A stretch of DNA of 52,150 bases. Source: a virus. The notes below the pieces were generated by a model. The model was not told the origin of the DNA and did not search any database. It saw only the letters and a program-made list of their open reading frames with translations. The position numbers and the translations under genes were made by a program. Shown here piece after piece: positions 19,486 to 32,018 of this stretch (position 1 is its first letter; each line of letters begins with the position of its first letter). The DNA is taken from the IMG/VR virus record IMGVR_UViG_3300024979_000007, positions 1-52,150 of that record. One strand, 5' to 3'.

Positions 19486-22400
19486 ATGGCACTGAATTTT
19501 TACCAGTACACAAAATCAGCTGATAAGTACGGCGCGGTCGCACAGCCGGAACCTGTTAAGCCATCGGAGCCCGGCTTGCTCAGCAATATGGGCCGCAGTG
19601 CCGCATCAGGCGCTTTGTCTGGTGTCGGTGGTATCTTTGATTTTGTTGGTGCTGACGGCATAGCCAAACAGTTCTATGGCTGGTCTGACGATGCTCGACA
19701 AAGCATGTCAGTTGAAGCTCAAGCGGATCTGGCAAAGCCGTTTTTTACCGAGAGTGACCAAGGCGAAATTCAGCTGGGCGACGGGCTCACCGATTTAGAT
19801 ACCTGGCTGCTGACCATGGCCAACGTGGCCGGCCAATTTGCACCAACTGCAATTCCTGGTGCGGGCCTTGCCAATGCCGCAACCAAAGCGCTGAAGCTCG
19901 GCGAAACCGGCGCCAAAATTGCGACAGCTGCTGGTATGGGTGCAACTGGCGGTGCATCGGCAACCGGTCAGGGGATGGAGCAGGCGCGCCAAGAATGGCT
20001 GCAGATGCCGGATGAGCTCAAGCTGCAATCTGACCTATTCAAAAACACTATCCGCGAAATGAAGCAGGCCAAGCCTGAGTTGGATGGCGAAGCTCTTTGG
20101 ACTGCGGCTGAAGATAACGTGGCTGAACGTCTGGCTTCTGAAGTTCAGACAGATCCAAAAGTGCTGCTGGCTAACTTTGCCGGATCAGCGATTGCAGATC
20201 CAATTATTGGCCGGGCATTGACCGGCGCTCGCCTGGCGAAGTCTGGCGCATTCCGCTCAGCCGCTAAAGGCTTTGCGATTGAAGGTGGCACGGAGGCAGG
20301 TCAGGCGGCTGTTCAGGAGTACGGCATCAATCAGGCTCTGTCTCAGGTTGATGGTCGTGATCCAATGGACGGAGTTGCCATTGCCGCACTCAATGAAGGT
20401 GTCGCAGGCGGTACGCTCGGCGCTGCAGCCGGTGGCGTCGGTGGTTTGCTGAACCGCAAACAAGCAGAGCCGGTTAAAGATCCAGAAGCTGACGCTATCC
20501 GCGATAAAAACCCAGACTTAGCCAGCGCATTCGATGGAATGGCGCAGTCAGCAGCACAGCGCGAATCTGATTTGCAAAGCATCATCGGCGGCATGCCAGC
20601 AATCAGCCAACCAGCACTTGAAGGTGAGTTGCTGGATCCGGAGCAGGCCGCAGGCCCGAACTACAACCCGAACCAAATCGGCATGCAGGCGCGCATCGGT
20701 GGCCCTACAGTCCCGCGCATTACTCAGAAAGATGTCATCTTTGCTGCCGATGGCCGCACTGAAGCTGAACGCAATCCTGCAATGGAAGGTGAGTGGTTAA
20801 GCCCGGAGCAACGAGCAGCCAATGCAGCTGCAGGCTTTATTGAAAATGCACCGATTGATCTGGAATCTGAGCAGGTCAAACAAGCAAAGGCCGAAATGGA
20901 GCGGATGCGAAACCAGCCGCGGCAGATCGCAGACAAAAACATCATCTTTGCTGGTGATGGCCGGCCGCAGCAGGCAACGCAGGAATTTACCGACAACCTG
21001 CATAGCCAGGCTAATGAAGCGGCATCAGTCCCGCGCCTGCCACAAAAGGACATCATTTTCGCCGGTGATCAATCCGGCGTTCGCGTCAAAGGCAACGGGC
21101 AGGTATATCTATCACCGCGCGAAGCCATGACCAGCAAGCAGGCCCGCGCAATGAAGCGCAGCGGCACACCAGTTGAGGCTGTACCTTTCGGTGATGGTTG
21201 GGGCTGGCGAGTAAAAGAATCGCAGCCAGAGCAAGTTGTTCAGCCAGTTGAGCCAGCACCAATTCAGCTGATGAAAAGCGGCAGGCCATTTAGCACAGAA
21301 GCCATGATGCTCAAGAGTGTCAGCTACAAGGAAGCAGCCTCCACGGGCGCTGAGCTGGAACCAGTCAAAGTCGAAGGTGGCTTTGGTTTTCGCGTGAAAG
21401 CCCCGAGTATTTCTGATCCTGCCCCGCAAAATGCACCGGAAGTGCAGGCGCGGCCAGCTATTGATGGTCGACCAACTGGCAAAGCATCCGTTGCTACAAC
21501 GCCAGCCGGTCGTGATATCGATGTTGAATACCAGGTCGTTGAAGCGAACTCGCTGATCACTTCTAATCTGGAAGATGGCCGGAGCAATCCGGATTTTCCA
21601 CCAGAGCTTCAGCCGCGTGACCGCAGTCGTGCAGCAAGTATGGATCAGATCAACCGTATCGCCGGTGCGGTAAATCCGCGCCTGCTGGCTGAAAGCCCGA
21701 CGACTTCGGACGGCGCGCCAATCATTTCAGCAGATGGCATTGTGGAATCTGGCAATGGCCGCAGCTTAGGTATTCGAAAAGCATACCGCCAGGGTGGTGC
21801 AGAAGGTTACCGGCAATGGCTGAGTGAAAACGGCTACAACGTCGATGGCATGAAACAGCCGGTGCTGGTTCGCGTCCGCCGGACTGAGCTGTCACCAGAG
21901 GACCGGCTGGCATACATCAAAGAATCAAACCAGCGCACCACTTTGGAAATGTCTGCCACTGAGCAGGCTGCATCGGATGCGTCGAAGATGTCAGGCGTGG
22001 TTGCCGACTACATAGGCGGCGAAATCACATCTGCTGAAAACCGGAGCTTTGTGCGTAAGTTCATGCAGAACGTAGCCGGCGAAGCCGAGCGCGGTGGTCT
22101 GATGGACTCAAGCGGCGTGCTGTCACAAAATGGCCGGCGCCGGATTGAGGCAGCTCTGCTGTCTGCGGCTTACGGTGATGATGGTATCGTGGCTGAAGTG
22201 TTTGAAAGCGGCGATACGGATATCAAAGCAATCGGCGGTGCACTGCTTGATGCTGCCGGCAAGTGGGCTCAGATGCGAAATGCTGGGCGCGATGGCATGA
22301 TTGCCGATGGTATGGATGTTACCCCGTTCCTGCTGGAAGCAGTGAATCTGATCCGGCGTGCTCGGGGTGAGGGCAAGGCGCTGATTGAACTGGTCAGCAC

Positions 22401-25400
22401 TGATGACATATTTAGCGGTTCACTCCCTGATGCAACTCGCGCCTGGTTGTCTATCTTTTATCGTGGCGATACGCTGTCACGCGCTCGCGGTCGTGATAAG
22501 GTTGCAGAGTATTTAATTGGCTATGCAAATGAAGCATTAAAAACACAGCCTGGTGATGGGCTTTTCGGTGACGTTGTAACGTCAGATCAAGTAATGGGAG
22601 CGCTTAATGAGCGAATCACAAACCAAGAAGGCAGCGGCGCCCAGCAAGGCGGATTGTTCACCACTGGCAATGCAGGTAATGGTGAAACTGGGCCGAGAAC
22701 GAGCCGAGAAGGACAAGGATCCAGTGCTGAACGCTCTAATGGACCAGATCGAGAGCAACCAGAAAAGCCCGCAGTAAACGCTGAACCCACTACCCAGACC
22801 CCGGCCGATGCCGGGGTTTCTGTTTCTGAGCCTTTGGAACGTATCGACGACTTTGGCGAGAAGCTTGGTGGTGCTCGCAAAGATGTTTGGGCCGGCTTCT
22901 CTGAGGCGGTAAGCGGCGAAGTTGATACAAGAGAGCTGCCGCTGTCTAAATCATTCCCTGAGCCAGACTATGTGAAGATGGCTGCTGATGGCGTATCAAT
23001 GGAAACGCTGGCCATCATCGCAGCTATGCGCTCTGAAATTCCAGCTAAGCCGCGTGTCTCGTACAAAGTCAGGCGCTGGGCTGAGAAAGTTGATGTATTG
23101 CGTAACTTTGCCCGGGATCTGATTAGCGGCGAACTGACGCCGGACCAAGTGATTGCTGCTATGTTCAAAAGTGGCGGCGAACTTCAGGCGATGGCTGATG
23201 CTATCCCTGCAATCGCTCAGGCCAATCCTGAAACTATCAAGTTTGCTGCAAAGTACCGGCTTGGCTCAGGTTCGTTCAGCATGTTTCGCGGTCAGGAATA
23301 TCGACCATCAAAGACCTTTTACTACCCACAAAATGGCGGCACAGAAATTCTTGATTTGGCCAGCCCAGATAAGCAGGGCGCGCTGGATAACTTGGTGAAA
23401 CTGATCAAGGCAGAAGCCGCGGCGAATCCTGAAACTGCCGGGCAAAAGCAAAGCAAGATTTCAATCTACACCGACCGCTCTACGAAGCAAATCTACCTTG
23501 GATGGGCGGGTGGCAGCGGCGTGCTGCGGATCCAAGATTTCGCTACCGTCAACGAAGCACGCGAATATCTAAAATCCAACCGTGCTGATGTGGAAGCCAA
23601 GCTGAAGCAACTTAAGCAAGTGCCTGAGATGCGCCGGCCAGAGAACAGGAAGCGGGTCGGGCCTCCGCGCTTTGCAGGCAGTATCACGCCAGCAATTTTT
23701 GCAGATACCTTTGGTTTCAGAGGCGTTGAGTTTGGTAATTGGGTAGAGCAGGGGAAGCGGCAGCGAGATCTTAACGAAGCCTATGATGCGCTCATGGATC
23801 TTGCCGATGTACTTGGCGTCCCGCCAAAAGCACTGGCTTTAAATGGCGAGCTTGGCATGGCATTCGGTGCTCGCGGAAAAGGCGCTGCAACAACTATCAA
23901 AGCTGCTGCTCACTACGAGCCGTCTTATGTGGCAATCAATTTAACCAAAGAGTCAGGGGCCGGTTCGCTGGCACATGAATGGTGGCACGCGGTTGATAAC
24001 TACTTTGCGCGACTGTCTGGTAATCCAAACAGCTTTGTGACCGAAGGCGGCAACATCCGTGGTGGTGACTTGCGGCAAGAAGTGCGCGATGCTTTCACAG
24101 CACTCATTTTGGCTATTCGAAAAACCAAGATGTTTCAGCGTGCATCAACGCTTGATTCGCGGCGTAGTAAGCCTTACTGGTCGTCAGAAATCGAAGCATC
24201 AGCCAGATCCTTTGAAACATTCATCATTACAGAACTGGAAGCTAAAGGGTTTAGCAATGACTACCTGGCAAACGTAGTTGATCCGGAAGTGTGGGGCGCA
24301 GTCGAATCAGCAGAGCAGACTTACCCGTACCCAACCAAGTCTGAGCAGGAGATCATCAATCCAGCTTTCAGGGCATTCTTTGATACGTTGCAGACCAAAG
24401 AAACTGATAAAGGCGTGATGCTTTTCAGTAAATCCGTCAGCAAAGCTGATGCTGAGCAATATCGGATTGAACTTGCAGACAGTTTGCGATCTTTGAAATC
24501 AAATGTTCCTGTGATTCGCATCGGGAAAACGCCAGACATACTCATTAGACTTGGTGTTCCTGAATTGGATTTAGGGATTTGGCGTGACACTGTTAGGAAG
24601 GCGACTAACGGTATAAAACATTCAGTGTCGATGAAAGATATTGAATTACTGCCAGAGCATCTGAGCGATCCGGTCGCTGTCTTTAAATCGAAAAGTCACG
24701 GAAAAGTGATACTAATTGATGCCGTCGATTCGAATGGAGATCCGGTAGTAGCGGCTATCCATTTAGAGCAGAAGGAGGGGCGGCAATTAGTCATTAATCG
24801 AGTTGCAAGTATTTATGGGAAAGAGAATGCAGCAACTGCATTGGCAGGATTTGAGCTTGAGTACATTGATAAAAACAAAAACCCCGAGCTGGTACGGCAT
24901 CTTGGTCTAATTCCAAGGAGCGGTTCACCTTCACGGGGTTCTGGCGAAAATGTACTCACCAAGGACGATCTTGTCAAGGAAAACCCTGACATCCAGTTCA
25001 CTCAACAAAACACCATCAAAGCAAAGCCGGCGCGCGGCGTGAATGCCAAACTGGCTAAGCAGATGGTGTCCAGCATTATGAAGCGCTTGAATGGTGCGGC
25101 CGGCATTAAAGTTGTCGTGCTGGAGACTCAAGCTGAAGCCGAGAAGCTGTGGCAAATGTCGCTGTCTGGTGACCTGGTACGTGGCGCCTACAACCGTGCA
25201 ACCAATACCGCCTATGTGATTGCCGAAAACGTGAAGTCACTGGATGAATTGCGGGAAGTGCTGGCGCACGAAGTCATTGGCCATGGTGGCCTGCAGAATG
25301 TGATCAGCAAAGCCGATTACACCGCATTCATTGACCGCCTGAAACAGACTCGGAACAACCGAGCCTTTGCAAAGCAGTGGGCTCAGATTGATAACGACTA

Positions 25401-28257
25401 TGACGGATTCAGCGAAAACGACAAAGCCGAGGAACTGTTCGCCTACTTTGTTCAGAACAAGCCAGTCACCGGCCCAGTGAAGTTCTGGTGGAATGCACTC
25501 AAACGGTTCCTGCACAAAGCCTTGGTTAAGGCCGGTCTGGCGAAAGCTGGTGATCCGGATGTTGAGGCTATGCAGGATATGCTGGAGTCGATTCGTGCCG
25601 GCTTTATGTTTAGCCGCGCCGTTACCGTGACTGGGGCTGACTCCGAGTTGGCATTCAGCAAAACCCGCACCACAGAACAGGCCGATGCACTGGGCAAACT
25701 GGGGCTTGGTGAAGAGGCTGCAGAAACTGTGGCCGAGCAAGCTAAGCGCCGAGCCAATGAAACTGTCGACACGCTGAAAAGCAGCTCATTCTGGAAGCGG
25801 TTGAATGAAGGTATCTTCGATGGCCTGTATGGTATTAAGCAGGCTGAAGAAGCTGCAGGCATCACGGATCCAAACAAACAAGGCTATGTGTCTGCCCGGC
25901 TGGCGTCTGGCCTGTCCGATATCCTGCACGGTGTTTTCCACTATGGCGCGCCAGTTTGGAAAGATGGCGTTGTGCAGCGCAAAGCTGATACCAAAGGCTT
26001 GTTGGAAGTATTCGGCATGCTGGGCGATGACCTGAACGAATGGCTGGCATGGATGGGCGCCAATCGAGCAGAGCGCTTAATGGCTGAAGGCCGCGAGAAC
26101 AATCTGAGTCAGGCTGACATTGACGAACTCAAAGCAATGGCGGCTGGCAAAGAGGCGTTGTTTGAGCAGGTCCGGCAGGAATACAACAAGATCAATAGCT
26201 CCATCATTGACCTGGCTGAAGAGGTTGGGCTGTTAAGCGCGGAGCAGCGCGGTGATTTTGATGAAGAGTGGTACGTGCCGTTTTTCCGCAACATGGAAGA
26301 AGAAGTGGATCCGGAAATGTCCGGCATTGCCGCTATGGTCCATGGCCCGCGCAGCCGCAAGGGCATTGCGGGTCAATCCGCGCAAATCAAAGAGCTGAAG
26401 GGCGGGCGCCAGTCCACGAAAGACTTGCTGGAGAACATCATCCATCGCCAGTCAACCATGATTGATGCTGCCATCAAGAATAAAGCCATGGCCGAAGTGG
26501 TGAGCAATCTGGAAGGCACGCCATTCATGCAGGCAGTTGATAGCCCGGACATTGCAGCGCTGAGCCAGACCGAGCTGAACTTGCTGCAGAAAGTGAAGGT
26601 TATGCGTAACGGCAAAGCTGAGGCGTACACAGTCACGGATCCGGCACTGCTGCGTGGTCTGCTGCAAATCCACACCATTGGCAACCAATCGCTGTTCAAC
26701 CGCATGGCCCGCAGTGCAAAGCGGTTCCTGACCGCTGGTATCACTTTGAGCCCTGATTTCATCATCAAGAACTTTGTGCGCGATGCGGCACATGCCTGGA
26801 TGATCAACAAAGACGGTTTCCGGTTTGGCGCTGACTCAGTGGCCGGCCTTCGCAAAGCATTCGCTGAAGATGAAGCATACCGGGATCTGATTTTCTCGGG
26901 TGCTGCATTCCAAGGCGGCTACGTCCATGGGGCAGATCCGGAAGCTGCAGCGCAGCAGGTTCGCCGGGCACTTCGCAGTAAAGGTCTGGGCGAGGCTGAT
27001 ATCCAGTCATACATGGAAAGTCTGATCACAAAAGGTGGTCAGCTGCTGGAAGCGTACCGCACTGCGTCAGATAAGGTGGAGAACGCCAACCGGTTGAGCA
27101 CCTATGAAGCAGCGTTGGCCGGTGGCAAGTCTCGCCGGCAGGCTGCGTATGAGGCGAAAGACCTGATGGATTATTCGCTCAAAGGCAACTTTGCGCTGAT
27201 CGGCACCATGATTGATATGCTGCCTTTCTTCAATGCCCGGCTGCAGGGTATGAGCAAACTGGTCCGCGCTATGAAAGCCGGTGAAGGTGACCGCGTATTG
27301 AAAGTGCTGAGTGCCAATTTGGCAATGAAGGGCTTGAAGGTTGCCGCATTCAGCCTGGCACTTGCCGCGATGAATGACGACGACGAGCGCTATCAGGAAT
27401 TGCCGGACTGGGATAAGGACGCAAACTGGCACTTCTTTATTGGTGATGAACACTTCCGGATCCCGAAACCTTTCGAGCTGGGCATTCTGTTCGGCACCAT
27501 GCCTGAGCGGATGTTCCACTATGCGGCCGGCAGTCAGCCAGGCGGTGACTTGGGCAAAGCCGCAGCGCACGCCGTGTGGAATACGCTGGCACTGAACCCA
27601 ATCCCTCAGCTGGCGCTGCCGGTTGTTGAAGTGATGACGAACAAGTCATTCTTTAAAGGCAGTCAGATTGAAGGTATGGGCGATGCACAGCGCAAACCAG
27701 AGGACCGGTATAACGCCTACACCAGCGAAACCGCGAAACAAATTGGCGCGGCGTTTGGTGTAAGCCCGAAAATGGTTGAGCACTTGATCCTTGGCTACAC
27801 CGGCACCCTGGGTGGATATGTGCTGGGCATGTCCGACATTGCTGCGCGGCAGATGCTGGGCATTGAAGCTGCTGATACACCAATCAGTCGCTATCCGGTG
27901 ATCAAGGCGTTCTATCAGGGGGATGCACCGAAAACCGCAACCAAGTTCCAAGACGAGTTTTACAAGGCTCTGGAGGACGCCGCTGAAGCGCATGGCAGTT
28001 ATAAGCGCGCGGTCGAAGAGGGTGATGTGGTACGCCAGCAAGATCTGAAAGAATCAGAGTCACAAGCATTGGGCGCCCGGGTTGCGCTGAACCGGATCCA
28101 ACGTCGACTGAGTGAGCTGAACAAGCAGGCTGAGCTGGTGAACAATAATCAGAGTCTGAGCGGTGCGCAAAAACGGCAGAAGTTGGACGATATTACCAAG
28201 CGGAAAAACGAGCTGTATCAAAACGCCTATCTGCGTCATAAGCTGGGTGAGTGGTGA
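19486..28257 (+). CDS. Giant polyvalent protein (2,923 residues)
   Basis: One uninterrupted frame, about 17% of the genome. Residues 1-330 are Gly/Ala-rich with membrane-active-looking segments. Three spaced copies of a QKD-IFA-D unit follow (about 410, 482, 518), and two GDGWGWRVK-like units (about 570-650). A DdrB/ParB-like domain covers about 675-1025 (ESGNGRSLGIRKAY near 755). A DDFGEKLGGARKDVW segment lies near 1125. The LPD1-like zincin motif HEWWH is at 1497-1501. A MuF-C-like region spans about 1680-1810. A second zinc motif, HEVIGH, is at 1928-1933. LPD38-like sequence fills about 2400-2740, and a coiled coil ends the protein. Known polyvalent proteins enter the host with the DNA and act against host functions. 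Individual activities here are inferred. Confidence 0.85.
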   Translation: MALNFYQYTKSADKYGAVAQPEPVKPSEPGLLSNMGRSAASGALSGVGGIFDFVGADGIAKQFYGWSDDARQSMSVEAQADLAKPFFTESDQGEIQLGDGLTDLDTWLLTMANVAGQFAPTAIPGAGLANAATKALKLGETGAKIATAAGMGATGGASATGQGMEQARQEWLQMPDELKLQSDLFKNTIREMKQAKPELDGEALWTAAEDNVAERLASEVQTDPKVLLANFAGSAIADPIIGRALTGARLAKSGAFRSAAKGFAIEGGTEAGQAAVQEYGINQALSQVDGRDPMDGVAIAALNEGVAGGTLGAAAGGVGGLLNRKQAEPVKDPEADAIRDKNPDLASAFDGMAQSAAQRESDLQSIIGGMPAISQPALEGELLDPEQAAGPNYNPNQIGMQARIGGPTVPRITQKDVIFAADGRTEAERNPAMEGEWLSPEQRAANAAAGFIENAPIDLESEQVKQAKAEMERMRNQPRQIADKNIIFAGDGRPQQATQEFTDNLHSQANEAASVPRLPQKDIIFAGDQSGVRVKGNGQVYLSPREAMTSKQARAMKRSGTPVEAVPFGDGWGWRVKESQPEQVVQPVEPAPIQLMKSGRPFSTEAMMLKSVSYKEAASTGAELEPVKVEGGFGFRVKAPSISDPAPQNAPEVQARPAIDGRPTGKASVATTPAGRDIDVEYQVVEANSLITSNLEDGRSNPDFPPELQPRDRSRAASMDQINRIAGAVNPRLLAESPTTSDGAPIISADGIVESGNGRSLGIRKAYRQGGAEGYRQWLSENGYNVDGMKQPVLVRVRRTELSPEDRLAYIKESNQRTTLEMSATEQAASDASKMSGVVADYIGGEITSAENRSFVRKFMQNVAGEAERGGLMDSSGVLSQNGRRRIEAALLSAAYGDDGIVAEVFESGDTDIKAIGGALLDAAGKWAQMRNAGRDGMIADGMDVTPFLLEAVNLIRRARGEGKALIELVSTDDIFSGSLPDATRAWLSIFYRGDTLSRARGRDKVAEYLIGYANEALKTQPGDGLFGDVVTSDQVMGALNERITNQEGSGAQQGGLFTTGNAGNGETGPRTSREGQGSSAERSNGPDREQPEKPAVNAEPTTQTPADAGVSVSEPLERIDDFGEKLGGARKDVWAGFSEAVSGEVDTRELPLSKSFPEPDYVKMAADGVSMETLAIIAAMRSEIPAKPRVSYKVRRWAEKVDVLRNFARDLISGELTPDQVIAAMFKSGGELQAMADAIPAIAQANPETIKFAAKYRLGSGSFSMFRGQEYRPSKTFYYPQNGGTEILDLASPDKQGALDNLVKLIKAEAAANPETAGQKQSKISIYTDRSTKQIYLGWAGGSGVLRIQDFATVNEAREYLKSNRADVEAKLKQLKQVPEMRRPENRKRVGPPRFAGSITPAIFADTFGFRGVEFGNWVEQGKRQRDLNEAYDALMDLADVLGVPPKALALNGELGMAFGARGKGAATTIKAAAHYEPSYVAINLTKESGAGSLAHEWWHAVDNYFARLSGNPNSFVTEGGNIRGGDLRQEVRDAFTALILAIRKTKMFQRASTLDSRRSKPYWSSEIEASARSFETFIITELEAKGFSNDYLANVVDPEVWGAVESAEQTYPYPTKSEQEIINPAFRAFFDTLQTKETDKGVMLFSKSVSKADAEQYRIELADSLRSLKSNVPVIRIGKTPDILIRLGVPELDLGIWRDTVRKATNGIKHSVSMKDIELLPEHLSDPVAVFKSKSHGKVILIDAVDSNGDPVVAAIHLEQKEGRQLVINRVASIYGKENAATALAGFELEYIDKNKNPELVRHLGLIPRSGSPSRGSGENVLTKDDLVKENPDIQFTQQNTIKAKPARGVNAKLAKQMVSSIMKRLNGAAGIKVVVLETQAEAEKLWQMSLSGDLVRGAYNRATNTAYVIAENVKSLDELREVLAHEVIGHGGLQNVISKADYTAFIDRLKQTRNNRAFAKQWAQIDNDYDGFSENDKAEELFAYFVQNKPVTGPVKFWWNALKRFLHKALVKAGLAKAGDPDVEAMQDMLESIRAGFMFSRAVTVTGADSELAFSKTRTTEQADALGKLGLGEEAAETVAEQAKRRANETVDTLKSSSFWKRLNEGIFDGLYGIKQAEEAAGITDPNKQGYVSARLASGLSDILHGVFHYGAPVWKDGVVQRKADTKGLLEVFGMLGDDLNEWLAWMGANRAERLMAEGRENNLSQADIDELKAMAAGKEALFEQVRQEYNKINSSIIDLAEEVGLLSAEQRGDFDEEWYVPFFRNMEEEVDPEMSGIAAMVHGPRSRKGIAGQSAQIKELKGGRQSTKDLLENIIHRQSTMIDAAIKNKAMAEVVSNLEGTPFMQAVDSPDIAALSQTELNLLQKVKVMRNGKAEAYTVTDPALLRGLLQIHTIGNQSLFNRMARSAKRFLTAGITLSPDFIIKNFVRDAAHAWMINKDGFRFGADSVAGLRKAFAEDEAYRDLIFSGAAFQGGYVHGADPEAAAQQVRRALRSKGLGEADIQSYMESLITKGGQLLEAYRTASDKVENANRLSTYEAALAGGKSRRQAAYEAKDLMDYSLKGNFALIGTMIDMLPFFNARLQGMSKLVRAMKAGEGDRVLKVLSANLAMKGLKVAAFSLALAAMNDDDERYQELPDWDKDANWHFFIGDEHFRIPKPFELGILFGTMPERMFHYAAGSQPGGDLGKAAAHAVWNTLALNPIPQLALPVVEVMTNKSFFKGSQIEGMGDAQRKPEDRYNAYTSETAKQIGAAFGVSPKMVEHLILGYTGTLGGYVLGMSDIAARQMLGIEAADTPISRYPVIKAFYQGDAPKTATKFQDEFYKALEDAAEAHGSYKRAVEEGDVVRQQDLKESESQALGARVALNRIQRRLSELNKQAELVNNNQSLSGAQKRQKLDDITKRKNELYQNAYLRHKLGEW

Positions 28258-28927: not shown

Positions 28928-30166
28928 ATGTCACTTTCAGACAGTTGGCTGAAATCGGCGCACGGCAAAGAGTGCGACAAACCCTACGAAAAAACAGACC
29001 GCGATGGCCTGAGTGTGCGTGTATCGGCCAAAGGCAAAATTGTCTTTCAGATGCGCTTTCGTTACCTTGGCAAAATGCAGCGCTGTGACATCGGCACCTA
29101 TCCACTTATCTCTCTAAAGACTGCCCGGGAAGAATGCCTGAGGTATCGTGCTGCTTTAGAGAAGGGCGATGATCCACGGATAGTAAAAGCGGTTGAACGA
29201 ATGGAGCGGCAAAACGCCGGCACAGTCACAGAACTGTTTGAGCAGTGGTATAAATCTGATGTCGAGGGGCATAACGCTCAGGCTGCAAAGCTGTGGAGTT
29301 CTATCGACAAGCACCTATTGCCAACACTCGGGCATCTACCGGCCCAACAGATAACATTGCACCACTGGCTGGGCGTGATCGAACCGCTGGCCAAAAAGAC
29401 TCCTGCAATGTCGGCTCGTCTGCTTCGGCTGACCAAGCAAATGATGCGCTGGGCGGTGAAGCGTAACCTGCTGGAATCAAACCCGCTGAGTGACTTCACC
29501 AGTGTTGACCTCAACATTAAGCGCAGTGTTGGTGAGCGGATCTTAAGTGATGATGATCTGCGCCGCTTATATGAGTACATCGAGACCAATCAGCAGGCAG
29601 AGCCAAAGAACCTGGCCTTTATCCAGCTATGCCTTCTATATGGATGCCGGAACGGCGAGCTGCGTAAAGCCAAGGTGGCTGACTTCGATTTTAAAAACCG
29701 GATCTGGACCATTCCGGCAGAGAACCGGAAAACCAACAAAACCGGCAAGCCACTGCTGCGCCCAATCCCGCCAGAGTTTGACGACCTGATCAAGCAGCTG
29801 ATTGCATTGGCGCCGGGCGAATACCTAATCCCAGTGCGAGACAAAGACGAGCCACTAACCAGCAGTGCATCTGTCAGTTTGCCATATAAGGTGATGAACT
29901 GGTTTCAGCGCCGGCAGAGTATCAGCATGGAGCATTGGTCAATGCATGACTTGCGCCGAACAGCGCGGACGCACTTTAGCGGCCTGACCGAACCCCACAT
30001 TGCTGAGATTATGCTGGATCACAAACTGCCTGGTGTCTGGCAGGTTTACGATAAGCATGATTATCTGGAACAACAGATGCGGGCCTACCAGGCATGGCAC
30101 AGAAAGCTGATGATCATCATTGGCAAGGCTGAAGCTGATAACGTGGTTGAGATGAAGCGGGGGTGA
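28928..30166 (+). CDS. int: Tyrosine-family integrase
   Basis: 412 residues. Residues 1-90 match the DUF4102 arm-binding domain (DRDGLSVRVSAKGKIVFQMR, then CDIGTYPLISLKTAREE). A core-binding domain spans about 95-185, and the catalytic domain about 195-390. The catalytic residues visible are Arg241 in GCRNGEL, His340 and Arg343 in MHDLRRTART, His365 in MLDHKLPG and the nucleophile Tyr374 in VYDKHDY. Site-specific insertion and, with an excisionase, excision are expected. The 61-residue HTH gene at 35661 is the best excisionase candidate. The gene lies far from the immunity region and is followed directly by a membrane cargo gene. Confidence 0.95.
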   Translation: MSLSDSWLKSAHGKECDKPYEKTDRDGLSVRVSAKGKIVFQMRFRYLGKMQRCDIGTYPLISLKTAREECLRYRAALEKGDDPRIVKAVERMERQNAGTVTELFEQWYKSDVEGHNAQAAKLWSSIDKHLLPTLGHLPAQQITLHHWLGVIEPLAKKTPAMSARLLRLTKQMMRWAVKRNLLESNPLSDFTSVDLNIKRSVGERILSDDDLRRLYEYIETNQQAEPKNLAFIQLCLLYGCRNGELRKAKVADFDFKNRIWTIPAENRKTNKTGKPLLRPIPPEFDDLIKQLIALAPGEYLIPVRDKDEPLTSSASVSLPYKVMNWFQRRQSISMEHWSMHDLRRTARTHFSGLTEPHIAEIMLDHKLPGVWQVYDKHDYLEQQMRAYQAWHRKLMIIIGKAEADNVVEMKRG

Positions 30167-30169
30167 TTT

Positions 30170-30862
30170 ATGCGTAATTTAGGTCTATTGGATAAGTCAC
30201 CACAGGTTGCCAGCGCGTTGATAACTATTAGTCTTTTCACCTCTGTCAGTTTCGATTACGCACTTTTTAAAGTCTTGGGAATTTCAATCTCGCAGATGCC
30301 ATTCAAATTAGAAGATCATATTAAATCGTGCGTTGATGTTTTTGCTTTTGTTTTTTCAGTATTTATCATGATTCAAATCACTAATTTTTTGCCGTTAAAA
30401 GGAAGCCCAAAAGCTATGTTGGCAAGCCCGTCAGAGAAACTGAAAAGTTTTAGTTTCCTCCCGTACTTTCTGTTGGGTTTATTTGCGATTCCTCTATACG
30501 GAGCGCTTCAAGTGCCATTTGGTTCGCAGTCTGTGATGCTTTATGCAATGAGTGCTATGGGGTTATATTTTTTCTTAACTATGACTTTCTTTAGTCACTT
30601 ATATAAGGTTGCTGGGGACAATGCTAAACATATAATTTTCCTGATTTTTGCCTTGATGGCTGTGCCAGCTGCTGGGTTTATAAAGGGCGTATTTATTAGG
30701 GATGGGGTTGGATCGAAGGTACATTTTAAGGATGACTCAACATCACAAGGTTATCTTTTAATAAAGGCTACAACAGATTACTTTGTAATGTGGGATACAA
30801 CAAAATCAGAAGTGATTCTGAAAAAGAGGGACAGTGCAGATACTGTCAGGATAGTTAACTGA
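30170..30862 (+). CDS. Multi-span membrane protein, putative lysogenic cargo
   Basis: 230 residues, starting 3 nt after int, and visibly AT-richer than its neighbours. About five hydrophobic segments are seen (near 17-38, 52-75, 98-118, 128-150 and 155-175). A C-terminal soluble tail of about 55 residues with strand-like sequence (GYLLIKATTDYFVMWD) follows. No family is recognised. Base composition and position beside the integrase suggest a recently gained gene. Roles such as superinfection exclusion or defence are possible but unproven. Confidence 0.65.
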   Translation: MRNLGLLDKSPQVASALITISLFTSVSFDYALFKVLGISISQMPFKLEDHIKSCVDVFAFVFSVFIMIQITNFLPLKGSPKAMLASPSEKLKSFSFLPYFLLGLFAIPLYGALQVPFGSQSVMLYAMSAMGLYFFLTMTFFSHLYKVAGDNAKHIIFLIFALMAVPAAGFIKGVFIRDGVGSKVHFKDDSTSQGYLLIKATTDYFVMWDTTKSEVILKKRDSADTVRIVN

Positions 30863-31428
30863 GCCGACCTTCCAGCCGGCGCGTCGATATCGAGTCACGG
30901 CATGCCGCGCTGTAATCGCTAGGCGGGATCGGCTTTCACGGTGCCGCCTCATATTTCCGTGAAAACTCACTGCGGTTTTGCAGTCCTGCAGTTGACTGTT
31001 TCGTGTGGGTGCGTGGCTAAGTTATGAGTTAAACCTTTGCCAAGGGTAACTACGCGCTGCCATACGGCCAACTCCGCGCTAAGTCTCATTCAGAGTAATG
31101 AACTGCCAGCATTGGTTACTGGATAACGCTTGCCACCATTACTCTGGATTTCAGGTCCAGATGGTACGTTCAGCTCATTGGCTTTGGTGTCTGCCTCTGC
31201 CGCATCAGCCCGAAGCGCTTAACTGTTGGGGCCATTTTGCGCGACGCGGTTAGTACAAACACCAAACCAATAAACTGAGAGAGCCACCCCGTTGACTATG
31301 CCTCGTAAACTTAATTCAACGGGATGGAGTATTAAACTGGCCCCGCAGCCACCGATTTGAAGTTCGTTATGCTTTCAGCCTGGGCAAACCCTAAAACGTA
31401 CAACGTGTTTAAAGTTTCGGCTGCGGGG
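30862..31428. ncRNA. Candidate large structured RNA (strand undecided)
   Basis: No plausible gene lies between 30863 and 31466. The stretch holds successive, non-overlapping helices: AGCCGA/TCGGCT (30862-30867 with 30929-30934); TTTCACGG/CCGTGAAA (30934-30941 with 30957-30964); ACTGC/GCAGT (30969-30973 with 30980-30984); a hairpin at 31028-31050; a perfect 10-bp stem 31091-31100 with 31137-31146; a 13-bp stem with one bulged C, 31177-31190 with 31259-31271; an 11-bp stem with one mismatch, 31284-31295 with 31316-31327; and a perfect 10-bp stem CCCCGCAGCC/GGCTGCGGGG, 31341-31350 with 31419-31428. Long phage RNAs such as GOLLD and ROOL show this kind of layout; I cannot match it to either. G-U evidence for the strand is mixed. 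Confidence 0.6.
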
Positions 31429-31466
31429 TGTCGTTTATTTTGCCTGTGTTTTTTCTAAGTTCAATA
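30863..31466. other. Gene-free region of 604 bp
   Basis: Lies between a rightward membrane gene and the leftward ssb. It contains no supported gene and no tRNA. Its main content is the series of inverted repeats described under the structured-RNA entry. After the last stem, T-rich sequence follows at 31430-31454, which could end a rightward transcript. Two perfect 10-bp palindromes, TCGATATCGA (30884-30893) and CGGCATGCCG (30898-30907), lie in the first helix domain. Confidence 0.8.
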
Positions 31467-32018
31467 TCAGATACAGTGCAAAATGCGCTTACATTGCAGA
31501 CCGATCGGAGCGAACGGAATATCGTCGTCAAAATCAATCGGCGGTGCCATCGGGCCTCCGGGCATTTGGTTCTGAGCTGGCGTTGGTGCCGGGCGCTGGT
31601 TATAGCCGCCTTGTTGTGGAGCTGGCCGCGCCGGTGCTGGCCGGTTCTGGCCTGCTTGTGGTTGTGGTACGCCGTTGTTACTGACACCATCCAACATCTG
31701 CAGCTCGTTGGCGATAATCTCAGTGGTGTAACGCTCGACGCCTTGATTGTCCTGCCACTTGCGAGTGCGCAGACGGCCTTCGATATAAACCTTGCTGCCT
31801 TTCTTTAGGTACTCACCAGCGATTTCAGCCAGACGCTGGTAGATCACTACGCGATGCCATTCGGTTTGTTCCTTCTTCTCATTGGTCTGTTTGTCAGTCC
31901 AACTCTCTGAAGTGGCAATGGTGATATTGGCGATGGCGCCGCCGGTGCCGTTATAACGCACCTCCGGATCCGCGCCTAAATTGCCGATCAAAATGACTTT
32001 GTTGATGCCTCTGGCCAT
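31467..32018 (-). CDS. ssb: Single-stranded DNA-binding protein
   Basis: 183 residues. The OB-fold is clear: [20 protein letters not shown], then [29 protein letters not shown] and [16 protein letters not shown], ending near residue 112. A Gln/Pro-rich linker leads to the acidic tip DFDDDIPF at about 162-169. Unlike most bacterial SSBs, the tip is not terminal: a further 14 residues ([14 protein letters not shown]) follow. The terminal Phe carboxylate normally docks to partner proteins, so this tail may alter partner choice. It is the last gene of the leftward recombination operon, 4 nt after a 51-residue gene, with TAAGGA as ribosome site. Confidence 0.93.

Follow-up and report, generated by a model that had tools for sequence, protein, structure and literature searches.

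What is encoded in the gap beside the integrase gene of this phage, and on which strand? The DNA analyzed here, hereafter the window, is a stretch of 52,150 nucleotides from the viral record IMGVR_UViG_3300024979_000007. Its gap at 30863-31466, between a plus-strand open reading frame (ORF) at 30170-30862 and the minus-strand ssb gene at 31467-32018, contains no ORF-supported gene. The neighboring genes are as follows.

28928-30166: int, upstream of the plus-strand ORF at 30170-30862.
30170-30862, plus strand: ORF of 230 aa, a membrane protein judging by its hydropathy peaks, convergent with the RNA described below; its stop codon abuts the RNA's terminal hairpin, P4.
31467-32018, minus strand: ssb (PF00436, E 8e-40), directly upstream of the RNA and co-directional with it.

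The 230-aa ORF matched no family in Pfam, PHROGs or PADLOC. Farther away, 19486-28257 is a single tail-region ORF of 2923 aa, the first 838 aa of which are without a functional PHROG assignment.

Folding, strand and extent of the gap RNA

A sequence-only reading of the window had described the gap as gene-free and filled with helices, and this description was borne out. Two perfect 10-bp stems are present (31091-31100/31137-31146 and 31341-31350/31419-31428), together with several 8-bp stems and longer arms of 13 bp (one), 12 bp (one) and 11 bp (two), in each of which about one pair is mismatched. Shuffled sequences did not yield equally many stems: compared with the two perfect stems of at least 10 bp with loops of up to 120 nt in the gap, 300 dinucleotide shuffles had a mean of 0.05, and none of them reached two. 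The gap folded with z-scores of -3.85 to -4.32 on the minus strand and -2.03 to -2.23 on the plus strand, as determined by two shuffle methods. For the 5' part alone, the values were -4.39 (minus) and -1.66 (plus), and the ssb gene, analyzed as a control, had a z-score of +0.42.

The RNA gene is on the minus strand, because G-U pairs outnumber A-C mismatches by 95 to 13 across the family presented below; about 42 of the 95 represent one pair in P4. Covariation across the family is consistent only if G-U pairs are read from the minus strand, as exemplified by that near-invariant P4 pair. The strand, which the earlier reading had left open, is thus resolved by the fold z-scores and the family G-U pairs, and plus is not favored. 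That reading had also stressed the setting beside the integrase. Although int is indeed one ORF away, its proximity is incidental: the neighbor on the RNA's own strand is ssb, both in the window and in L002 (loci compared in this study carry handles of this form), and independently in L137.

We infer the following limits for the whole gene on the basis of the minus-strand fold (z about -4), the homologous gap of L002 and covariation in the 3' domain.

30830-31440, minus strand: putative whole RNA gene, starting near 31440, a short way past the ssb stop codon, and finishing at the terminator-like hairpin.
30830-30847, minus strand: terminator-like hairpin, GACAGUAUCUGCACUGUC + CCUCUUUUU, 15 nt after P4; one such hairpin was found where 1.0 is expected by chance.

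A terminator-like hairpin occupies the same place in L002 as that at 30847-30830 in the window. Consensus scans detected no sigma-70-like promoter in the gap of either the window or L002, and cotranscription of the window RNA with ssb is possible.

A pseudoknotted core shared with lambda 6S RNA

The part of the gap RNA that is conserved most widely is its 3' end, which has the following elements.

30862-30970, minus strand: conserved 3' core, lambda 6S-like, about 108 nt, consisting of stem A with a pseudoknot, the P3 hairpin and the P4 hairpin.
30934-30964, minus strand: stem A, UUUCACGG (30964-30957) paired with CCGUGAAA (30941-30934), with a loop containing GAGGCGGCA.
30921-30949, minus strand: H-type pseudoknot, in which AGGCGG of the stem A loop (30949-30944) pairs with CCGCCU (30926-30921).
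30884-30919, minus strand: P3, a two-part hairpin with an internal loop; its outer helix in the window is CGAU/AUCG.
30863-30880, minus strand: P4, the terminal hairpin, GCCGGC (UGGAAG) GUCGGC, with a pair that is near-invariantly G-U in the family.

Phage and plasmid sequences gave no match when searched directly with the gap by blastn, and an integrase-based search confirmed no relatives. An ssb search identified L002, whose ssb is 84% identical to that of the window; beyond L002, an exact pattern for the 5' stem matched only unrelated coding or terminator sequence and was abandoned. A second, distant contig, L003, has only a 35-nt stretch in common. There, the loop letters GAGGCGGCA and GATCCCGCCTAG are kept, and the surrounding stem is wholly different yet still complementary. 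Used as a DNA pattern, this motif led to more viral contigs and two Providencia genomes. A covariance model, R1, was built from five pattern-derived members and recovered the rest; among 395 genomes of the order of Providencia, it also detected eight more without having been given the exact motif. Whole-genome scans with R1 gave matches in one of 369 genomes of the class and nine of 395 of the order of Providencia.

With another pattern, this one built around the 3' hairpin, and a second model, R2, the family grew to 49 members, 43 of them distinct. Covariance-model matches to the 49 places had E-values of 1e-19 to 1e-28, which are rough owing to a short calibration. R2 does not match everything, because three of the 52 sources searched (L082, L151 and L158) gave no match. 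Pattern matches in L099, L101 and most of L111-L133 were discarded by eye as lacking the fold. Scanning whole genomes of the phylum, R2 matched four of 398, two of them weakly; these weak matches (G1106:C1:1082714-1082796, L183, 28 bits; G937:C3:84808-84906, L184, 23.8 bits) may be distant members or chance. Carriers of the core include enterics as well as metagenomic phages of far higher GC content (L148, GC 0.73).

The window core scored 102.6 bits with R1 and 85.1 bits with R2; having been in both training sets, it does not provide independent scores, but many other members do. Among the 43 distinct sequences, 94.6% of cells pair, and 24 of the 30 core pairs show compensatory, double-sided changes. 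These include all eight pairs of stem A, all five in each of the outer and inner helices of P3, and four of six in P4, whose consensus is a C(UGRRAG)G hairpin with one pair being G-U in 42 of the 43 sequences. The covariation score was 0.618, as compared with 0.151 in shuffles, none of which matched the observed value, and at most 0.100 when partners were slid. Given that the family alignment was itself fitted to the structure, we added anchor-only tests, in which the permutations take no account of sequence relatedness. The P4 arms were 0.90 complementary vs 0.55 when permuted (0 of 10000 permutations), and stem A had a mean of 8.6 bp vs 5.3 (0 of 5000).

The pseudoknot AGGCGG/CCGCCU is paired in 100% of the 43 sequences, with four of its six pairs invariant, and this motif was, in whole or in part, a requirement of the pattern searches. 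Independent support for it comes from L140, which was found by the model alone and in which two pairs change together, from A-U to G-C and from G-C to A-U; statistically, the pseudoknot pairs are supported by few changes. The most conserved letters of the core lie in the pseudoknot and in loops within the compact fold. Two further candidates were rejected. Visual inspection of lambda and Providencia suggested a conserved hairpin 5' of stem A, but its best stem, at 7.5 bp, hardly exceeded the 7.1 bp of shuffles. A protein-coding reading of the core, starting at the AUG in AAUGAGGCGGCA, failed as well: several members have no AUG, and the frame does not persist.

Blastn with one family member, L150, matched lambda at 44586-44721 as well as HK446, IME10, Kapi1 and others. 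R2 gave 72.7 bits on lambda 44609-44714, although lambda was outside its training set, 65 bits in Salmonella phage SI8 and 85 bits in Escherichia phage Chuche. The lambda core falls inside the 194-nt transcript at 44587-44780, which is known as lambda 6S RNA, the PR'-tR' transcript (J02459 44587-44780) starting at PR' at 44587. Of 5,426 complete E. coli genomes, 411 carried the lambda-type sequence. Lambda 6S RNA is a decades-old finding and is often regarded as a by-product of Q regulation. It has been classified as an Hfq-dependent sRNA, and a 2025 review reported its function as unexplored (PMC12197685). Our search of the open-access literature found no description of a conserved family of lambda 6S-like RNAs.

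Both RNAs have a 3' core composed of stem A with the GAGGCGGC loop, its CCGCCU partner, P3 and P4; a terminator follows in lambda and a terminator-like site in the window. Lambda 6S RNA lies directly after Q and, at 194 nt, has only a short 5' part, whereas the window RNA lies after ssb, has a composite 5' part that brings it to about 600 nt and is 16 kb away from Q. We are nearly certain that the two belong to one RNA family. The window RNA is a member of this lambda 6S-like family, as defined here, and not "6S RNA" itself, because it follows ssb and the window's Q-like gene has no RNA beside it. Lambda orf-64 (L171 772-966, corresponding to lambda 44621-44815) is annotated across the structured 6S core, and as a gene it appears doubtful because conservation across the core is of structure.

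Comparison with known families used cmscan with 4227 Rfam families, which gave no match in the whole window at the gathering score and nothing meaningful in the gap to E 10. On the relatives' loci, Rfam 15 detected only tRNA, C4 and isrK, all elsewhere in the loci, and the lambda 6S region gave no match. The proposal of the sequence-only reading that the gap harbors a divergent GOLLD or ROOL was not sustained, since cmscan found neither at these thresholds. Its other suggestion, a new class, is right in that the family is absent from Rfam, but the prototype transcript was already known as lambda 6S RNA. Its broader view of a large structured phage RNA gained comparative support from the 49 members with compensatory changes and from the homologous long form in a related phage, and the covariation that it had proposed to look for in homologs is present. 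The helices that it listed exist as stems, but some are mutually alternative, and in 30970-30862, the segment with the best support, the fold involves a pseudoknot missing from that list.

Putative exchangeable modules in the 5' part

The window has about 470 nt of extra folded RNA 5' of the core, in which three modules can be distinguished.

31331-31437, minus strand: P1, the 5' domain, closed by CCCCGCAGCC / GGCUGCGGGG plus AAACG/AGUUU, with a perfect 10-bp stem.
31284-31327, minus strand: hairpin forming the second, variable module, CCAUCCCGUUGA / UCAACGGGGUGG (inverted repeat I2).
31171-31277, minus strand: H3, a long helix whose arms, CAGUUUAUUGGUUUGGUGUUUG / CAGACACCAAAGCCAAUGAGCUG, are conserved and enclose a hypervariable insert.

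For most of this 5' part, L002 is the one close relative, in addition to scattered module matches. The homologous gap of L002, also downstream of ssb, spans about 720 nt and has a folding z-score of -3.39 on the minus strand vs -0.93 on the plus strand; a two-sequence RNAalifold consensus of the window and L002 did not discriminate between strands. The first 138 nt or so are 99% identical in the two phages, as is P1, which hence carries no covariation information, and identity is 93.6% over 188 nt close to the 3' end. Between these regions, only the two arms of one long helix are related, and the hairpin at 31284-31327 is replaced in L002 by an unrelated insert. At 31088-31149, L002 is without the CCAGAGTAATGG arm of the 10-bp stem 31091-31100/31137-31146; an alternative hairpin in this segment, ACUCUG/CGGAGU, is compensated as GCUCCG/CGGAGC in L002.

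We found nine instances of H3 in eight sources. Their inserts range from 36 to 75 nt and differ in both length and sequence, a common 10-mer occurring in only one of 36 insert pairs. A search with shorter arms revealed an additional H3 in L205, and a second copy in L208 displays compensatory changes in its arms. H3 units occur together with the 6S-like core in L203 and L208 and next to tRNA genes in L207 and L210. H3 gives the impression of an RNA cassette that is exchangeable in its own right. Units with the arms CAGTTTATTGGTTTGGTG / CACCAAANCCAATGAGCTG are present at one to two per contig in the window, L201, L202, L203, L204, L205, L207 and L208. We also considered a three-strand switch, in which CCAAUGAGCUG would pair with either the 5' CAGUUUAUUGG or the 3' CAGYUCAUU; this arrangement exists in only five of the nine H3 instances and remains a lead.

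L003 represents an independent long form: it folds with a z-score of -3.2 over 708 nt and has a promoter-like site at 2916-2943. Since H3 recurs with different inserts and the L003 long form is independent, the sequences suggest a picture of a fixed 3' core combined with exchangeable 5' modules. A second kind of unit in the style of H3, with a variable interior between CACAACTG and CAGTTGTGGTGAA, is located directly 3' of the core or, in L105, upstream of it.

CACAACTG...CAGTTGTGGTGAA units: L094 at 2541 (minus-strand coordinates), L105 at 1396, L136 at 1609, L138, L161 at 3295, L168 at 8096, and L169.

Genomic contexts and proposed function

In lambdoid and Providencia-type phages, the RNA is found with Q on one side and the late terminator on the other, regardless of the Q family. 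The core follows Q genes of PF03589/phrog_127 in lambda, L150 and L155, of PF06323/phrog_304 in L166, and of phrog_753 in L097, L108, L147 and L149. It follows ssb, with no Q adjacent, in the window, L002 and the unrelated L137. In other members, likewise with no Q adjacent, it comes after S24 or HTH (CI-like) repressors (L094, L098, L104, L136 and L140; farther away in L138), near or before tRNAs (L003, L102, L104 and L168), or, in Chuche, between a partition gene and a DUF3800 gene. Several members have terminators or convergent genes directly 3' of the RNA. The window does encode a Q-like protein.

47395-47970, plus strand: Q-like antiterminator gene (phrog_127, E 9e-12), with a C-terminal match to the lambda Q family.

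With filters off, R2 gave no match better than E 0.21 at 47300-50000, beside this gene. Because the Q-like gene has no RNA copy nearby, the RNA is separable from Q.

The region 3' of the RNA appears to accommodate accessory genes. Membrane-protein genes converge on the 3' end in L142 (SieB-like, 800-1438) and the window (30170-30862), and DUF3800 genes (PADLOC candidate PDC-M04A) converge on and abut it in L164 (3477-4343) and L176 (1568-2374), which are unrelated phages. Weinberg and colleagues reportedly described DUF3800-associated RNA motifs in 2017. The cores of L164 and Chuche resemble these in directly abutting a convergent DUF3800 gene; unlike them, the family has no Rfam match, and most 6S-like members have no DUF3800 neighbor.

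Our preferred interpretation, which we regard as likely, is that the gap encodes a phage non-coding RNA of about 600 nt on the minus strand, with a core homologous to lambda 6S RNA and exchangeable 5' modules, that probably acts in trans. Provided that it and lambda 6S RNA form one family, action in trans is reasonably probable. The sequence comparisons demonstrate the family membership, the core's strand and fold, and its separation from Q, whereas its expression, its action in trans, its partner and the part played by the 5' modules are proposals. The stand-alone transcript would end at the terminator directly after P4, and its core may dock on a host factor such as an RNA-binding protein, the ribosome or RNA polymerase, with the 5' part presenting the closed 5' domain, the hairpin and H3 as exchangeable modules. 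In lambda, the same core is made from PR' as long as Q is lacking, which is the situation in lysogens. In the window phage, the RNA, uncoupled from Q and placed after ssb, would be either cotranscribed with ssb or expressed from an unrecognized promoter of its own. Action in trans is suggested by the terminator-like hairpins that follow the core, by its unrelated contexts, and by the nearest characterized PR'-tR' product, which is trans-acting: lysogens of Stx phages make the PR'-tR' transcript constitutively, and the trans-acting sRNA StxS derives from it (PMC7873438). StxS shares the PR'-tR' position class and illustrates that such transcripts can act in trans in lysogens (PMC7873438), but it is a 74-nt processed Hfq sRNA and is likened to the window RNA by genomic position alone.

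Against this interpretation, the scans of the window and L002 recognized no sigma-70-like promoter for the RNA, and most members from known phages are located at PR', as expected of a cis element, and a cis role at PR' for the Q-adjacent members is the main rival. The RNA would then be a leader acting while nascent, modifying RNA polymerase or tuning Q antitermination, with the window carrying a displaced copy that acts on genes downstream. The constant placement between Q and the late terminator across Q families fits such a role. In the window, however, the transcript would end at the terminator-like site, and if it continued it would run antisense into the membrane-protein ORF and int; the window Q gene is without such an element beside it, and in several members terminators or convergent genes come at once. 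Lambda Q acts at promoter-proximal DNA of PR' and is not known to require the rest of the leader. The put antitermination RNAs of HK022, which act in cis, are likewise structured phage leaders, but they consist of two plain hairpins without a pseudoknot, unlike the window core, which has no Rfam match to any antitermination RNA. On balance, we consider a cis leader rather improbable. An ordinary Hfq-dependent base-pairing sRNA, in which structure would only protect and function would reside in phage-specific seeds as in StxS, is unlikely in our estimation but conceivable for all members. Lambda 6S RNA was recovered as Hfq-dependent (PMC12197685), and stx1B and rpoS are base-pairing targets of StxS, which comes from the corresponding PR'-tR' position (PMC7873438). 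Yet conservation of letters peaks in the pseudoknot and the loops of the compact fold rather than in a single-stranded seed, and the core is kept from enterics to L148 with its GC of 0.73, where host targets would differ. Because the conserved letters lie inside the compact fold, a protein, ribosome or polymerase partner is favored over simple base pairing.

The remaining two explanations fare worse. A large ornate RNA of the GOLLD/ROOL kind, forming RNA-only particles, would agree with the size, the strong fold energy, several tRNA neighbors and the layout of a constant 3' and a variable 5' part, a division also reported for GOLLD (PMC12286853). GOLLD and ROOL are indeed large phage RNAs that are often near tRNA genes, but their folds differ from that of the window RNA, which no covariance model in Rfam matches, and the 6S-like core also exists alone in RNAs of about 150-200 nt in lambda and Providencia, far below the known cage size; we judge this explanation quite improbable. 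A DNA-level element, either attP or an inverted-repeat-rich recombination site, could account for an integrase one ORF away and for the exchange of modules around the RNA between phages. It would not account for compensatory changes with G-U on one strand only or for members far from any integrase; for 30862-30970 it is largely refuted, and overall we give it hardly any credence.

A structured, probably trans-acting RNA with a 6S-like core remains our reading of the gap. At the level of the family, we propose tentatively, as a possibility that may well need revision, that these RNAs constitute a hitherto unrecognized phage-wide family, of which lambda 6S RNA is the best-known member, with a fixed pseudoknotted core and exchangeable 5' modules. 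They would reside beside different superinfection- or defense-type genes and, in lysogeny or early in infection, would target a conserved host machine in trans. That the fold is kept by compensatory change under three Q families and away from Q implies that the RNA itself is under selection. The long form in the window adds modular RNA with hypervariable inserts, and the defined core of pseudoknot, P3 and P4 can be mutated in the best-known phage, which makes the long-standing question of 6S RNA directly testable.
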